Origin: Campylobacteraceae bacterium
GTDB lineage: Bacteria; Campylobacterota; Campylobacteria; Campylobacterales; Arcobacteraceae
Length of the DNA stretch: 64,000 nucleotides
Assembly: GCA_013373175.1 (NCBI GenBank)
Contig: JABXII010000022.1
Span: 1-64,000, forward strand
Reading direction: 5' to 3'
Within the stretch, counting starts at the first letter, position 1. The number at the start of each line of letters is the position of its first letter. Of this stretch, positions 20,692 to 27,308 are shown one piece after another. The position numbers and the translations under genes were made by a program. The notes under the pieces were generated by a model. It saw only the letters and a list, made by a program, of their open reading frames with translations, did no database searches and was not told where the DNA came from.

Positions 20692-22074
20692 TTATTTTAG
20701 TTTGTCAGCTCTTGGGTAAATAAATACAGCATCCCTAATTACTGAAATTCTATTTGGCTCATCAATAGCATAAGCTCTTATTTTTACAGTTATAGGAGTA
20801 TCTTTTGTATTATCATTTACTAGAAGTTTATCTGTTTCAAGTACTACAACTTTTTTTCTAAGTTTTCCAGCAGATAATTTGAAAGGTGAAAATCTTTTGA
20901 TTTCAATATCATCATGGTTTAAAACTTCTATATTATAAGTATGAGTTTTTGAATCAGTATTTTGGAATAATAATAAGAAGTTATTTGAAACTACATTATT
21001 CTCTTTTATTTTATATAATTGAGTAGTTTTATTTACATTTAAAAGCATATACTCTTTTTTTCCACCCATTACAAATAAAAGACCAATAATTACAACTAAT
21101 GCAACTGTGTACATAATTGTTGATTTTCTTATAAATTTAGTTGGTTCATTCTTTTTAATATCTCTTGTACTTGTCCATTGTACTAATGATTTTTTACCAA
21201 GTTTACCCATAACAGTAGTACAAGCATCTACACACTCTAAACAGTTGATACATTCAAGTTGTAAACCTTTTCTAATATCAATGTGTGTAGGACATACTGT
21301 TACACATGCTTCACATGTAGTACATTCGTTTGATTCTTCAGGTAAATCTTTTTGTTTAAAGATTATCTTCTCTTTATTTTCATTATAGATTTCACCACCT
21401 CTATTTGTAGAGTAAATAGCTTGATACGTGTCATCATCATAAAGTACTGATTGAACTCTTGAATATGGACATACATAAACGCAGAAATCTTCTTTTAACC
21501 AAATTACATCATAAACTAAAAAACCAGCAATAGCTAAAACAAAACCAATTAAAAACCAGTGTTCTGTTGGGTTTAGAATGTAAGTAAGAAAATCTTCTGG
21601 TGGAACAAAGTACCACATAAAGTCAGCTGCAGCAACTAAAGCAATTATAGTCCATAAAATAATAGCTACAACTCTTTTAGAAGCATTTTCTGCTTTTGAC
21701 CAGTTTGGTTCTTTTTGTTTGTTTTTGATTCTTCTAAGCCCTAAAAGTTTTGATTCAATTAAGTCTCTGTATATAACTCTAAAAATAGTTTGAGGACAGG
21801 CCCAACCACACCAAGCTCTTCCTCCAATAGCAGTTACAGCAAATATTCCTAAGAATAAAAGCATAAGTAAGAAGGGCATTAAATATAATTCTTGCATATC
21901 AAATGCAATACCCATAAGATGAAGTTGTTTCTTATCGAATGATAATAAGAATATATGATTCCCATCTATTCTTATAAATGGAACAACTAATGCAACAATA
22001 GTTGCAATGATATATCCGTAATATCTTTTAATTCTGTAAGATGTTTTATTTAAAGCAGCAGCATTTTCTTCCAT
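20692..22074 (-). CDS. ccoG: Cytochrome c oxidase accessory protein CcoG (FixG/RdxA)
   Basis: A 460-residue membrane ferredoxin required for cbb3-type oxidase assembly, where it is linked to copper reduction. The N-terminal half has four to five membrane helices with the family motif GRAWCGWACPQT near residue 85. Two [4Fe-4S] motifs follow, CTTCEACVTVCP and CINCLECVDACT (about 250-285), then a further helix and a periplasmic Ig-like FixG C-terminal domain (about 340-460). AGGA precedes the ATG. The upstream gap holds a 10-base inverted repeat. No ccoNOQP genes are in view, so it is detached from its usual cluster. Confidence 0.94.
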   Translation of the reverse strand: MEENAAALNKTSYRIKRYYGYIIATIVALVVPFIRIDGNHIFLLSFDKKQLHLMGIAFDMQELYLMPFLLMLLFLGIFAVTAIGGRAWCGWACPQTIFRVIYRDLIESKLLGLRRIKNKQKEPNWSKAENASKRVVAIILWTIIALVAAADFMWYFVPPEDFLTYILNPTEHWFLIGFVLAIAGFLVYDVIWLKEDFCVYVCPYSRVQSVLYDDDTYQAIYSTNRGGEIYNENKEKIIFKQKDLPEESNECTTCEACVTVCPTHIDIRKGLQLECINCLECVDACTTVMGKLGKKSLVQWTSTRDIKKNEPTKFIRKSTIMYTVALVVIIGLLFVMGGKKEYMLLNVNKTTQLYKIKENNVVSNNFLLLFQNTDSKTHTYNIEVLNHDDIEIKRFSPFKLSAGKLRKKVVVLETDKLLVNDNTKDTPITVKIRAYAIDEPNRISVIRDAVFIYPRADKLK

Positions 22075-22114
22075 AATATATCCTAAATCTTTTTTTTAAT
22101 TCTATATAAATCTC

Positions 22115-22143
22115 GCTTATAATAAGCATAAACTATTATAAGC
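22115..22143. promoter_or_regulatory. Inverted repeat upstream of ccoG, candidate operator
   Basis: Perfect 10-base arms GCTTATAATA (22115-22124) and TATTATAAGC (22134-22143), separated by nine bases. Each arm contains a TATAAT-like hexamer. No T run follows, so a terminator for the upstream gene is unlikely. The site lies 41-69 bases before the ccoG start. Confidence 0.5.
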
Positions 22144-22182
22144 CCAAGTTATAATAAATACCAATATTAATAATCATCAATT

Positions 22183-22863
22183 TTAATTGCTTTTATAATT
22201 AATACAAGCTTTAACAAATTTCTTAAAAATATTTCTGTGATTTTTTAAGTATATTAAATATTCTGGATGCCATTGTAAAGCAAGTAAAAAAGGGTAGTCT
22301 TTCTTTTCAACAGATTCAATGATAGATTCATGTTTTGATGAAACTTCTAAGTCTTTTCCTACTTTATGGATAGCTTGGTTATGAATACTATTAATTAATA
22401 TTTCATCTTCTTCTACAGCAGAGTGTAAAGCGGTATCTTTCTTAACTTTTGCTTCTTTTATTGGAAAAATAGAATTTTGGTGAATTAGGTATTCATCTAA
22501 GTCAAGTATCTTTGCATAAAGATTTCCTTCGAAATAGATATTAATCAACTGTGCCCCTCTACAAATTCCAAGAATTGGAAGCTCTTCTTTATAGGCTTTA
22601 TCAATGATTTCTAATTCAAAGGCATCTCTTTTTTTATCAAGTTTAGTATTGTGTGCATCTTTATTTGCTCCATATAAAGTTGGGTCAATATCACTTCCCC
22701 CACTTAAAATCAAACCATCTAATTTTTTGAAATTAATATTGTTTTTTGATGGTCTTAACCTAACACAAGAAGCCTTTTGTAACTTTAGGTTTAATTTTAT
22801 AAATAAGTATGCAAAAAAATTGCCTTTGTCAGGTAAGCAAATACCAACTAATGGTTTAGCCAT
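22183..22863 (-). CDS. Class I glutamine amidotransferase-like hydrolase (peptidase C26, PuuD type)
   Basis: A 226-residue protein of the gamma-glutamyl-GABA hydrolase family. The triad is visible: Cys in LGICRGAQLINI (about residue 96) and His-x-Glu in LQWHPEYL near the C-terminus. SGGSDIDPTLYG is the PuuD-type substrate/oxyanion segment. These enzymes cleave gamma-glutamyl amides. The frame opens at a TTG at 22884, but the ATG at 22863 starts the conserved domain (KPLVGICLP), so it is preferred. It overlaps the amidoligase gene, which puts bond-making and bond-breaking activities in one transcript. The substrate is probably the amidoligase product, by inference. Confidence 0.85.
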   Translation of the reverse strand: MAKPLVGICLPDKGNFFAYLFIKLNLKLQKASCVRLRPSKNNINFKKLDGLILSGGSDIDPTLYGANKDAHNTKLDKKRDAFELEIIDKAYKEELPILGICRGAQLINIYFEGNLYAKILDLDEYLIHQNSIFPIKEAKVKKDTALHSAVEEDEILINSIHNQAIHKVGKDLEVSSKHESIIESVEKKDYPFLLALQWHPEYLIYLKNHRNIFKKFVKACINYKSN

Positions 22864-23843
22864 GACTCTACTTTCCCGTGCCAAGTTGTTAGATTAATGA
22901 TATTATCTAAATGAGTTAAATACTCTTTTGCCAAAAAGCTTAAAGACTCTTTGTCATTTGCTAAATTTTCCACAAGAATCCATCTATTCCACTCTTCTGC
23001 AACTTCCCATCCTTCATTTCCAATCATTGAATTAGACAATCTATAATGAAAAGCAGGTCTTGGTTTTATCTTCTCCTTAGGAAGGTGGGCTCTAACTTTA
23101 TCTTCATTGATAAAAGCTAAAATTGGAAGAAGGTCTAAAGACCTATTTCGTGTTGCATTAAACTTCAAATAGTCTTCAATAAATTCATCAATTGTTGGTT
23201 TGTATGAGTCATCTAAGACATGTTTAATATAATCGTTTTTAAAGTTATCTATAAAAGGTGTTATTTTTCTTGCTAAGTCTATCTTTGCATCTTTATTTAT
23301 ATAGTTTTGAAGTATTAAGTATGCTTTTGTATAGTCTAATAAACTTTCAACATCTAAAGAGATAACTTCTACATTAATATGCAAACCAAATGCATAATAT
23401 ATTTTATGTTTCGTTCCTTTTGCATTATTTTTTGCTAGTTCTTTTATTATTCTATCTATTATTGCTACTTCATCCAAAGGAAGAGGTGGCGTACTTATTT
23501 CATAGGGAACTATATCTTTTGAAAGCTCACCTATTAATTTTTCAATATTTTCTATATCTTTTTCTTTTATATTTATACCTACTTTTTTAGATAAACTTTT
23601 TGCGTTTTTTTTGATTTTTTGTTGTGTTAAAAGTTCAAAATCAAGTTCAAGTGTAAAATCACCATATTTAGAAATGATTTTAAATAAATAATTGTTCACT
23701 TTCTTTACACTAAAACCAAATTTTTCTTCTAAGATAGATAGGACATCTTCTATATCAATATTTGCAAACTCTAATTCAAAACCAATATGTCTAATTTCAT
23801 CTTTATAATTTTTTGTCACTTTTGGTTCTAAGAAGTTATTCAT
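22848..23843 (-). CDS. Amidoligase family protein (glutamine-synthetase-like fold)
   Basis: A 331-residue protein matching the amidoligase family (PF12224), ATP-dependent ligases related to glutamine synthetase and glutamate-cysteine ligase. The metal-binding GFELEF strand is at 21-26, a second site is in FGLHINVEV near residue 150, and the nucleotide or substrate loop HYRLSNS is near 262. The family is predicted to form amide bonds on small molecules or peptides; no substrate is established here. The frame opens at TTG 23864, but ATG 23843 has AAGGA at nine bases. It starts four bases after the reductase stop and overlaps the C26 hydrolase gene. Confidence 0.82.
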   Translation of the reverse strand: MNNFLEPKVTKNYKDEIRHIGFELEFANIDIEDVLSILEEKFGFSVKKVNNYLFKIISKYGDFTLELDFELLTQQKIKKNAKSLSKKVGINIKEKDIENIEKLIGELSKDIVPYEISTPPLPLDEVAIIDRIIKELAKNNAKGTKHKIYYAFGLHINVEVISLDVESLLDYTKAYLILQNYINKDAKIDLARKITPFIDNFKNDYIKHVLDDSYKPTIDEFIEDYLKFNATRNRSLDLLPILAFINEDKVRAHLPKEKIKPRPAFHYRLSNSMIGNEGWEVAEEWNRWILVENLANDKESLSFLAKEYLTHLDNIINLTTWHGKVESWLNH

Positions 23844-23847
23844 TAAA

Positions 23848-25209
23848 CTATTTCCTTTTTTCAATATTTTTTATTGTATTTATTGCAGCAGGTAAAAGAG
23901 TTTCACTTAAAGCAGGGTGAATATAAAGCATCTCTTTTAAATGCCTAATATCATTATCAATATGCATTACTGTTAATACTTGGTGAATCATTGTTGAACT
24001 TTGTGGTCCAATTATATGACAACCTAAAATTTCATAGCTATTCTTATCAACAATAAGTTTTGTAAAAGGATAGTCTAGTTTCATAGCTTCTGCTTTTGCA
24101 CTTGCTTCCCATGAAGTTTTTGAAACCACAACATCTAAGTTTCTTTCTTGGGCTTGTTTTTCTGTAAGACCAACACTTGCAATCTCTGGAGTAGTAAATA
24201 CAGCATGTGGCATATACTTAAATTTTAGAGGTTCTTTTTTATCTTCAAATAAAATTTTAAAAAGATAATTCATTTCGTATGCTGCTGCATGTTGTAGCAT
24301 ATATTCTCCTGCTGCATCTCCTACAACATACACACCTTTTGCATTTGTTTCAAAGAATTCATCTCTTTTTATATAACCTCTTTCATCAGTCTTAATAGTA
24401 GTGTTTCCTAGCTTTAGACTATGTGCATTGGATTGTCTTCCTATAGCATATAATAAAGCTTCACTTTTATACTCTTTTGTACTTTTGTCATTACTTTCAA
24501 GAGTGATTTCAAAGGCTTTATCTTTGTACTTAGCATCTTTTACAGTTGTATTAAACTCTATATCAATATTTTTACTAAACTCTTTTTTAAAAGTTTCTTG
24601 TATTTCTTCATCTTCATTTGATAAAAGTTCATCTCCTCGTACTAGAAGTTTTGTTTTGATTCCTAAAGCATCAAAAACATTTGCTAGTTCACAAGCAATA
24701 AAACCCGAACCAACAATAGAAATAGAAGAGGGTATTTTTTCTAATGGAAATATATCATCACTTGTCCATGCACCTTCAACAAGAGGCTCTTTTGGCGAGC
24801 TTCCTGTTGCAATGACAATTTTATCTGATGTTAGTTTTTCATTGTTTACTTCAACTACATTATTTGAGAGAAAATAGCCTACACCTCTATATATATCGAC
24901 ATTATCATTTAATCGAGATTTATATTTTCCATCTACACTATCAATAAAGGAGTTGTTGTTTTCAAAGATTTTTTCTACTTTGATATCTTCTATTTTACTT
25001 AAAATAGAGTGTTTTTCAGAACCTTGGATACTTCTGATAACATCAGCATAGCCTATTAGAAGTTTTGAAGGAACACATCCTCTATTTGAACAAGTTCCCC
25101 CTAATCTTGATTTTTCAATCAAGGCAACTTTTTTGCCAAGCTTTCCTATGTTTTTTGCTAAATGAGAGGCTCTTCCCCCTCCAATTATAATAGTGTCATA
25201 AGTTTTCAT
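23848..25209 (-). CDS. FAD-dependent pyridine nucleotide-disulfide oxidoreductase (Lpd/mycothione-reductase-like)
   Basis: A 453-residue class I flavoprotein disulfide reductase. The FAD site is IIGGGRASHLA (the third glycine of GxGxxG is Ser), the redox disulfide is GTCSNRGCVPSK (about 43 and 48), the NAD(P) site is IVGSGFIACELA, the second FAD motif is GVYVVGDAAG, and the C-terminal active-site His-Glu is in HPALSETL. No pyruvate dehydrogenase or glycine cleavage genes are near, so lipoamide is not an obvious substrate. It heads an operon with an amidoligase and a C26 hydrolase, which raises a low-molecular-weight disulfide as a candidate substrate. GAG lies upstream of the ATG. Confidence 0.85.
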   Translation of the reverse strand: MKTYDTIIIGGGRASHLAKNIGKLGKKVALIEKSRLGGTCSNRGCVPSKLLIGYADVIRSIQGSEKHSILSKIEDIKVEKIFENNNSFIDSVDGKYKSRLNDNVDIYRGVGYFLSNNVVEVNNEKLTSDKIVIATGSSPKEPLVEGAWTSDDIFPLEKIPSSISIVGSGFIACELANVFDALGIKTKLLVRGDELLSNEDEEIQETFKKEFSKNIDIEFNTTVKDAKYKDKAFEITLESNDKSTKEYKSEALLYAIGRQSNAHSLKLGNTTIKTDERGYIKRDEFFETNAKGVYVVGDAAGEYMLQHAAAYEMNYLFKILFEDKKEPLKFKYMPHAVFTTPEIASVGLTEKQAQERNLDVVVSKTSWEASAKAEAMKLDYPFTKLIVDKNSYEILGCHIIGPQSSTMIHQVLTVMHIDNDIRHLKEMLYIHPALSETLLPAAINTIKNIEKRK

Positions 25210-25242
25210 ATTTTCTCACTTTTAGTAGAGATATTTTATTTA

Positions 25243-25248
25243 ATTATA
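25243..25248 (-). promoter_or_regulatory. -10 element of the reductase-amidoligase operon
   Basis: A perfect TATAAT on the minus strand, 34 bases before the reductase ATG. The predicted transcript starts near 25236. Confidence 0.5.
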
Positions 25249-25361
25249 GAATAGTTTTATCAAATGAGACTTATTTTTTTATTAAAAACTAAAAAATAAT
25301 AATTATTTATACCAATATGCAGTATTCTTTGTATTTTATTTCAAAAGTGAAAACAAGAGTA

Positions 25362-25414
25362 AAACTAGATTTGACCTTTTAGTTTTTGTAAAATAAGAGG
25401 TAAAAATCTAGTTT
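25362..25414 (-). terminator. Long hairpin downstream of mnmG, probable terminator
   Basis: Outer arms AAACTAGATTT (25362-25372) and AAATCTAGTTT (25404-25414) are perfect complements. An inner stem, ACCTTTTA (25374-25381) with TAAGAGGT (25394-25401), has one G-T pair and sits across a small bulge. It starts 20 bases past the mnmG stop. On the minus strand the T tract after the stem is short (TTTTACTCTTGTTTT), so termination is likely but not certain. Confidence 0.55.
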
Positions 25415-25433
25415 AAATAGTGTGTGTTAGTAT

Positions 25434-27308
25434 TTATTTTTGTGCTTTACTATTAATATTTATATACATGTGAATAATATCAATTGCAGCTGGTGTAACT
25501 CCTGATATCTCACTTGCATTAAATAGTGTTGGTGGCTTGAATTTTTCTAACTTCTCTGTAACTTCATTTGAAAGACCTGGAATTGATTTGAAATCAAAGT
25601 TTTCAGGGATTTTCATTTCAAGCATTTTTTTCATTTTTTCAATTTGTTTCTTTTGCTTATCAACATATCTATAATATTTTGCTTCTACTATAATTTGTTC
25701 TTTTAAATAACTCTCTGTATCTTTAAATGAAGGAACTAATCTATCAAATTTTTCAGCAGTTATTGTATTTCTTCCTACTAAGTCAATAAGTTTTGCTCTA
25801 TCTTTGATTTTATCTTCATCAATTTCTTCTAATAATTCTAGATTCTCTTTTTTAGAAGTAAACCATTGCTCAGCCATAAATTCAACAGCTTCATCAATAA
25901 CTTTTCTTTTATTTTCAACTTTTGCATTTTGTTCATCAGTAATTAATCCGAACTCATGACCATAAGCAGTTAGTCTTAAGTCAGCACTCTCTTCTCTAAG
26001 TAGAAGTCTATACTCAGCTCTTGAAGTAAACATTCTGTATGGTTCATTTGTTCCTTTTGTAACTAAGTCATCAATTAAAACACCAATATATGCTTCATCT
26101 CGTCTTAATACAAATGGTTCTTTACCATCAATTGCAAGACAAGCATTAATTCCAGCCATTAACCCTTGAGCACCTGCTTCTTCATAACCAGTAGTTGCAT
26201 TGATTTGTCCTGCATTGTAAAGGTTATTGATTTTTTTAGTTTCTAAGGTGTGTTTTAACTCTGTTGGATCAACATAATCATATTCAATAGCATATCCATA
26301 TCTAATGATTTTTGCATTTTCTAATCCAGCAATTGAATGAATCATTTGCTTTTGTACATCAATAGGAAGTGAAGTAGATAATCCATTGATATAGTACTCT
26401 GTTCTCATTTCTGTTTGTGGCTCTAAAAATAGTTGGTGTCTATCTCTATCAGAAAATCTATTTACTTTGTCTTCAATACTTGGACAATATCTAGGTCCTG
26501 TTCCTTCAATTTGTCCTGTAAACATTGGTGCTCTATGGAAGTTTCCAGAAATAGTACTGTGTGTTCCTGTATTTGTGTATGTTATAAAACATGGATATTG
26601 AGTAGGATTGAAGTTCTCTTTATCTGTTCTAAAAGAGAATGGCATAGGTTTTTCATCTCCACCATGCTCTTCCATTACTGAAAAATCAATTGAAGAAGAA
26701 TCAATTCTTGCAGGAGTTCCTGTTTTTAGTCTTCCTACATTTAATCCTAACTCTTTTAATTGTAAAGATAAAGTAGATGATGGAAGTTCCCATGCTCTTC
26801 CTGCATCATAAGTTTTTTCACCTATGTGAATTAGTCCTCTCATAAAAGTACCTGTTGTAAGGATTACTTTTTTTGCAGTAAACTCTTCTCCAAGTTTTGT
26901 TTTTACCCCATAAACTTCATTTTCATCTTTTACTAATAAAGATTCTACTTCGTCTTGGTAAACTTCTAAATTAGGAGTGTTGTGACAAACTTTTCTCATA
27001 TACTCTCGGTATTTGTCCATGTCAATTTGAGCACGACTTCCTTGAACTGCTGCACCTTTTGAAGCATTTAAAACTCTAAACTGAATACCTGTAGCATCAG
27101 TACAAAGTCCCATTTCTCCACCAATAGCATCAATTTCTCTTACAAGGTGACCTTTTGCTAGACCACCAATTGCAGGGTTACAGCTAGCTGCTCCAATTTG
27201 CTCTACAAGCATTGTGATTAGAAGAGTTTTTTTACCCATTCTAGCACTTGCTAAACAAGCTTCTATTCCAGCGTGACCTCCACCTACAACTATTACATCA
27301 TATTTCAT
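25434..27308 (-). CDS. mnmG: tRNA uridine 5-carboxymethylaminomethyl modification enzyme MnmG (GidA)
   Basis: A 624-residue FAD protein that, with MnmE, installs (carboxymethyl)aminomethyl groups on U34 of certain tRNAs. The FAD motif [12 protein letters not shown] is at the N-terminus, the conserved cysteine-containing [19 protein letters not shown] follows, and [16 protein letters not shown] is the late FAD segment. The C-terminal helical MnmE-binding domain (about 550-624) includes [20 protein letters not shown]. The length equals the family norm. AAGGA precedes the ATG by five bases; this ribosome-binding site falls directly after the T run of a hairpin that ends a structured leader or small RNA. 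Confidence 0.97.

Follow-up and report, generated by a model that had tools for sequence, protein, structure and literature searches.

The window analysed here is a stretch of 64,000 nucleotides from a Campylobacteraceae bacterium (contig JABXII010000022.1), in which three genes follow one another closely on the minus strand. These encode a class I (Cys-Cys) FAD disulfide reductase (23848–25209), placed by profiles, trees and motifs in a clade of Arcobacteraceae and probably NADPH-dependent; an amidoligase of the glutamine synthetase/glutamate-cysteine ligase-like (GS/GCL-like) type, Amidoligase_2 (22848–23843); and a Peptidase_C26 hydrolase, which resembles class I glutamine amidotransferases and has a Cys/His/Glu triad (22183–22863). 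The arrangement given in an earlier note on this DNA was borne out when the coordinates were re-read. The reductase stop codon (TAG, 23850–23848) is followed by four bases (TTTA) and then by the amidoligase start codon (ATG, 23843–23841), while the amidoligase stop codon (TAG, 22850–22848) lies beyond the C26 start codon (ATG, 22863–22861), such that the two genes overlap by 16 bases. The earlier note had read all three genes as one pathway. Comparison across genomes separated two kinds of association: a deep one between the amidoligase and the C26 hydrolase, and a local one involving the reductase.

The amidoligase and C26 genes are a conserved two-gene functional unit across many phyla. At least 565 relatives of the amidoligase were found by a scan of genome_contigs, the 80 top-ranking ones being retained. 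Pairs were counted over 91 distinct loci, after removal of L027 and L028, which came from the same contigs as L018 and L019. Where 800 nt or more of sequence was available (88 loci), the gene immediately following the amidoligase in the same orientation was a C26 gene in 84 cases; none of the 91 loci had one upstream (up to 1.45 kb searched). Hence, the proximity of the amidoligase to a glutamine-amidotransferase-like protein, recorded in the earlier note, holds well beyond this genome. The 86 pairs that could be measured belonged to 13 named phyla plus unnamed relatives, although single phylum labels may be wrong because many of these pairs come from metagenome bins. The two genes overlapped in 72 pairs (median spacing -11 bases), 7 others had gaps of 1–30 bases and 7 had longer gaps; no fusion protein was seen in the 86 pairs. 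Among the 86 C26 partners the triad was nearly invariant (Cys in 86, His in 85, Glu in 84), and Arg18, Glu23 and Glu25 of the amidoligase, counted from the ATG, were kept in all 91 sequences.

The pair was also regular closer to the window. The amidoligase was found in 13 genomes when 60 relatives were surveyed (window genome counted), and C26 followed it in 12; in the thirteenth, G058, the contig ends too early for C26 to be seen. Among 397 genomes sampled from Campylobacterota the amidoligase was present in 31, and the pair was intact in 27 of 27 further genomes of this phylum; G419, the sole amidoligase match of that survey without a locus, was left out. After C26, the next commonest neighbours were ABC ATPases, judged by sequence appearance, near 14 of 83 counted loci. 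Many of the named carriers (including L037, L049, L050, L058, L077, L085, L098 and L101) belong to Gracilimonas, Aliifodinibius, Halomonas and Ectothiorhodospira, which we take to be saline or alkaline genera; an osmotic role for the pair is an idea that this list raises, biased as it is towards the 80 highest-scoring relatives out of at least 565.

The family labels given to both proteins beforehand were confirmed. The amidoligase matched Amidoligase_2 (PF12224) with 211 bits against a curated cut-off of 22. Its sequence profile gave no meaningful E-value against PDB chains (best 0.18), and its AlphaFold2 model, built on a 60-sequence alignment (pLDDT 92.5, pTM 0.89), was compared by structure. 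The sole Foldseek match below 1e-3 was the plant glutamate-cysteine ligase 2gwc (E = 7.1e-4), followed by YbdK (E = 0.018); VIA-align aligned the model to glutamine synthetases with Z up to 12.9 (root-mean-square deviation 3.4, 208 residues) and to 2gwc with Z = 11.4 (4.2, 239 residues). The amidoligase is thus predicted, on its model, to have the glutamine synthetase/glutamate-cysteine ligase fold. The C26 protein matched Peptidase_C26 (PF07722) with 153 bits (cut-off 20.5) and the GATase profile with 62 bits, and its top PDB match was PuuD (E = 2.4e-20). All three of its best NCBIfam scores were below cut-off: 88 of 266 bits for the PuuD-type model, such that the protein is not assigned as a PuuD (gamma-glutamyl-GABA hydrolase) equivalog, 77 of 250 for gamma-glutamyl-CDP-amidate hydrolase, and 47 for a GMP synthase subunit.

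The reductase contains the Pyr_redox_2 (PF07992, 184 bits) and dimerisation (PF02852, 102 bits) domains, redox cysteines in the motif CSNRGC, the HPxxxE pair and an NAD(P) motif. It fell below the cut-off of all 25 NCBIfam models shown among the 41 that it matched. Its best score was for a dihydrolipoyl dehydrogenase model (NF004947, 389 of 592 bits), and it also failed to reach TIGR01350 (361 of 408.8), the models for mycothione reductase (340 of 501 and 319 of 636) and glutathione reductase (329 of 480), and that for trypanothione reductase (147 of 738). Three orthologues were likewise under the cut-offs of the models listed for them. The earlier note had remarked on Ser in place of the third Gly of the FAD motif; this was correct (GGGRAS), but the residue occurs in 16 of 17 orthologue rows, with Ala in the other, and is a feature of the clade rather than a peculiarity of this protein. 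Two mycothione reductases used for comparison have Asn at this position. The motif GxGxxA with Arg at the end of the second strand was present in 17 of 17 rows, as in the glutathione reductases compared, which is why the reductase likely uses NADPH. CVPSK was also found in all 17 rows, whereas both glutathione reductases compared have CVPKK.

In a tree of 43 rows, the 17 orthologue rows formed a single clade (support 100/100) outside the main clade of lipoamide dehydrogenases (Lpd), its nearest neighbour being mycothione reductase (91/84), at a meeting of long branches. A Halomarina plasmid protein and the C25 protein, which is GltD-like by sequence, were absent from this tree. With twelve of its rows removed, a constrained tree joining the reductase to Lpd was not rejected by the approximately unbiased test (p-AU = 0.08), and neither was one joining it to glutathione reductase (p-AU = 0.167). 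Judged by sequence, the reductase is a separate clade of Arcobacteraceae that does not stand firmly outside the lipoamide dehydrogenases. The firm clustering with Lpd that the earlier note had named as evidence against its reading was not observed.

The genetic background of the reductase was considered in the same genome. The earlier note had seen no lipoamide-dependent complex nearby; the genome does have one elsewhere, on contig C37, where the E2 gene of a 2-oxoacid dehydrogenase is followed by its own Lpd. The possibility that the reductase is the Lpd of this complex was rejected for that reason, and its distinctness from the 2-oxoacid dehydrogenase Lpd was upheld. There are 14 Pyr_redox_2 rows in the genome, and the class I type was identified only in the reductase and in that Lpd; three of the other proteins were inspected, presumably a GltD-like protein, a TrxB-like protein and one of 339 aa. 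On contig C14 there is a glutathione synthetase homologue (L348:1387-2415; NF003573, 293 bits, cut-off 272).

Within Arcobacteraceae the reductase was considerably more widespread than the pair. Among 104 genomes of the family, 44 had the reductase and 17 the amidoligase; 16 had both, 28 the reductase alone and 59 neither, while G104 (84% complete) was the only one with the amidoligase and no reductase. Kinship was taken from a quick tree of one gene, mnmG, which included 81 of the 104 genomes (80 plus that of the window) and left out 20 with a match to this gene and 3 without. Along supported branches there were only 4 independent pairs, of which, on average, 1.5 favoured a link between reductase and amidoligase, 0 opposed it and 2.5 showed no difference. 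Of 37 genomes of the family, 15 had a fatty-acid cis/trans isomerase (CTI, PF06934) and 18 the reductase; in the 9 of these that carry the amidoligase, CTI was present in 8 and the reductase in all 9. Co-occurrence is thus not specific to the reductase, since CTI tracks the amidoligase about equally.

Gene order gave a similar picture. The reductase directly adjoined the pair in three species (G000, G015 and G008), so that the three-gene order is seen beyond this genome, as the earlier note had asked, but only in three related species. In three further species CTI stood between the reductase and the pair. In G017 this gave an overlapping chain of reductase, CTI, amidoligase and C26 on one strand. 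In G010 and G002, a reductase-CTI pair was convergent with a diverged amidoligase-C26 pair; in G013, reductase and CTI were adjacent and the amidoligase was on another contig. The reductase was beside CTI in four species (L017:5949-9579, L135:4602-8235, L024:10835-14482 and L025:11000-14644), and the two genes overlapped in G017 and G013. CTIs adjoining reductases formed one clade in a CTI tree (100/100), while the CTIs of G000 and G015 grouped with those of G004, G012 and G009, genomes without reductase and amidoligase. No reductase was found in the flanks (about 1.5 kb or less) of the pair in the 27 further Campylobacterota genomes. A single pathway of three conserved genes was therefore not taken as the default, since the reductase adjoins the pair only locally. 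In two species (L136:7477-9147 and L137:7178-8852), the reductase orthologue was beside a small protein, which we take to resemble a parvulin-type peptidyl-prolyl isomerase.

When the 91 loci were searched with the reductase by tblastn, six of the 85 loci other than those of the six species with an orthologue at the pair held remote relatives (27–31% identity). Five were from Balneolales (L066:1-1094, L083:1-909, L086:6291-7715, L096:6368-7789 and L103:5867-7288), where an Lpd adjoined the amidoligase on its upstream side, on the opposite strand; four of the five exceeded the TIGR01350 cut-off, and that of L083 was truncated by a contig end. Among 20 Balneolota loci these five seem to represent a single lineage, and they also share two further same-strand genes downstream. 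In the sixth, L054 (an Acidobacteria bin), an Lpd was located about 4.4 kb upstream of the pair, beside an apparent E2 gene. The Balneolales and L054 relatives are ordinary Lpd, outside the clade of the window's reductase.

Beyond the three genes, an exact TATAAT was read at 25248–25243, on the minus strand, separated from the reductase ATG by 33 bases. The earlier note had placed the genes behind one -10 element. The hexamer is present and is a possible -10 for the operon; the promoter scan, by contrast, placed no two-hexamer site there, and its 22 promoter-like sites across the region compared with a mean of 21.8 in shuffled sequence. On these results, obtained in an AT-rich region where the site count is at the shuffled rate, a single promoter for the three-gene operon is no more than plausible. 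Two syntenic flanks lie outside the unit: ccoG (20692–22074, minus strand; TIGR02745, 490 bits) and a gene taken to be mnmG (25434–27308, minus strand), with a match in 101 of the 104 genomes of the family. The interval between them (22074–25434 in the window; L299–L318 in relatives) was a variable insertion site across Arcobacteraceae, with no gene called in G012, G005, G001, G007 and G013, and with the reductase block or unrelated genes elsewhere. The mnmG match contained one or two in-frame stops in G091, G107, G110 and G098, which could be error or real.

These observations are tentatively interpreted as a gamma-glutamyl-amide ligase/hydrolase pair beside a separate, general disulfide reductase, a reading to which a probability of about 0.45 is given. 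The amidoligase would use ATP to activate a carboxylate, in the manner of glutamine synthetase and glutamate-cysteine ligase, and join it to an amine, the product most likely being a gamma-glutamyl amide. The C26 enzyme would cleave such an amide, to judge by its top-scoring named relatives, which are gamma-glutamyl-amine hydrolases; cleavage might serve recycling or come, as in the Puu pathway, after an intermediate reaction whose enzyme is encoded elsewhere. The reductase would be a separate, probably NADPH-dependent enzyme, likely acting on a general low-molecular-weight disulfide; glutathione is a possible substrate because the genome encodes glutathione synthetase. It would share the locus with the pair through local rearrangement, reductase-CTI and amidoligase-C26 being two units that met, after which CTI may have been lost in the window's lineage.

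Several results weigh against this interpretation. Four of the 88 loci (L048, L055, L065 and L097) had no C26 anywhere in the stretch examined, and among distant plasmid amidoligases (24–34% identity; 11 found, 8 examined) C26 adjoined 3 and was not alongside the other 5, such that pairing weakens with sequence distance. No consistent gene for a middle enzyme recurred near the pair in the 83 loci counted. Of the 17 genomes with the amidoligase, 16 also carry the reductase, compared with 28 of the 87 without it (Fisher p = 1.9e-6 when phylogeny is left aside), and this may be a real link between the two. A flavoprotein of the same superfamily neighbours the pair in two lineages, as the Balneolales Lpds demonstrate, and this is not explained away. 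Finally, glutathione synthesis is unproven because gshA had no match in this genome with PF08886, the sole gshA family searched; across the 104 family genomes this profile gave three sub-threshold matches.

Two alternatives bear on the partners separately. The C26 protein could be the glutaminase subunit of a two-subunit amidotransferase, releasing ammonia from glutamine with which the amidoligase amidates a carboxylate. Fixed order, overlap in most pairs and near-constant pairing would fit a stoichiometric complex, C26 is matched by the class I GATase profile as well, and no other gene is consistently linked to the pair; yet the Peptidase_C26 score far exceeds that for GATase, the best named relatives are hydrolases, no fusion occurs and some amidoligases lack C26. 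Such a role is possible rather than probable, and ranks close behind the favoured gamma-glutamyl-amide reading. The reductase, for its part, might quite conceivably be the glutathione reductase of these bacteria, or have some other housekeeping role in disulfide reduction, unrelated to the pair. Its being, with the 2-oxoacid dehydrogenase Lpd, the only class I type identified in the genome argues for this, as do the presence of glutathione synthetase and the wide occurrence of the reductase without the amidoligase, whereas its score under the glutathione reductase cut-off, CVPSK in place of CVPKK and the lack of a gshA match within the family searched argue against.

The proposal of the earlier note, in which the three genes act in a single pathway that yields a thiol-bearing glutamyl amide and the reductase reduces the disulfide of this product, is unlikely. 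It could draw on the tight operon in three species and the overlapping chain in a fourth, on co-occurrence with the amidoligase, on the NADPH-type motifs of a reductase that is not firmly an Lpd, and on the divergent Lpd beside the pair in Balneolales. However, the amidoligase is missing from 28 of the 44 family genomes that have the reductase, no reductase lies in the pair flanks searched in 27 other Campylobacterota genomes, the Lpd of Balneolales is of the standard type and on the opposite strand, independent pairs number just four, and CTI co-occurs with the amidoligase about as much. The single pathway was not sustained, and since the thiol-bearing amide took its main basis from it, that product is conceivable but unsupported. 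Very improbable is a wider version, in which the pair, CTI and the reductase are together the relic of a stress cluster making a redox-active glutamyl amide, which a new class of NADPH reductase would keep in the reduced state. Were it true, this class would be neither Lpd, glutathione nor mycothione reductase, and the Balneolales Lpd beside the pair would be a second solution to the same need. For the favoured ligase/hydrolase pair, identifying what it makes would be informative for both enzyme families, and the reductase, as a clearly bounded clade, can be assayed by itself.

Among known systems, GS/GCL-like amidoligases were reportedly predicted by Iyer et al. in 2009 to make amides in an ATP-dependent manner. 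The present protein shares the membership of Amidoligase_2 and the predicted activity, but its subfamily differs in having a near-constant C26 partner. No paper coupling an amidoligase with peptidase C26 or gamma-glutamyl-gamma-aminobutyrate hydrolase was found in a limited collection that does not cover the wider literature. In phages, an amidoligase close to a glutamine amidotransferase, or sharing a genome with one, has been described (PMC3890496, PMC10945688); in PMC3890496 the amidotransferase is of class II (GATase_6). The likeness is this company of a glutamine amidotransferase, and the difference is class II in that paper and C26 here. A phage origin of the amidoligase was rejected, as no relative of its subfamily was confirmed in viral_contigs and none matched phage records.

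The Puu pathway likewise employs a ligase, PuuA, and a hydrolase, PuuD. It resembles the pair in combining a ligase of glutamine synthetase fold with a C26 hydrolase, PuuD being the closest PDB relative of the latter; here, however, no middle enzyme recurs nearby, the ligase is of Amidoligase_2 and the PuuD model is matched far below its cut-off. The gamma-glutamyl-CDP-amidate hydrolase, which we take to be Campylobacter Cj1417c, has a role in capsule phosphoramidate. It is termed a C26 peptidase in PMC9953165. This enzyme is also a C26 hydrolase and gives the second NCBIfam score, but one below cut-off. Glutathione reductase, mycothione reductase and Lpd share with the window's reductase their family, the CxxxxC cysteines and HPxxxE; GxGxxA plus Arg is common to the glutathione reductases and one of the mycothione reductases, the other having the Arg only. 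The reductase differs from all of them in forming, on its sequence, a distinct clade of 17 rows.

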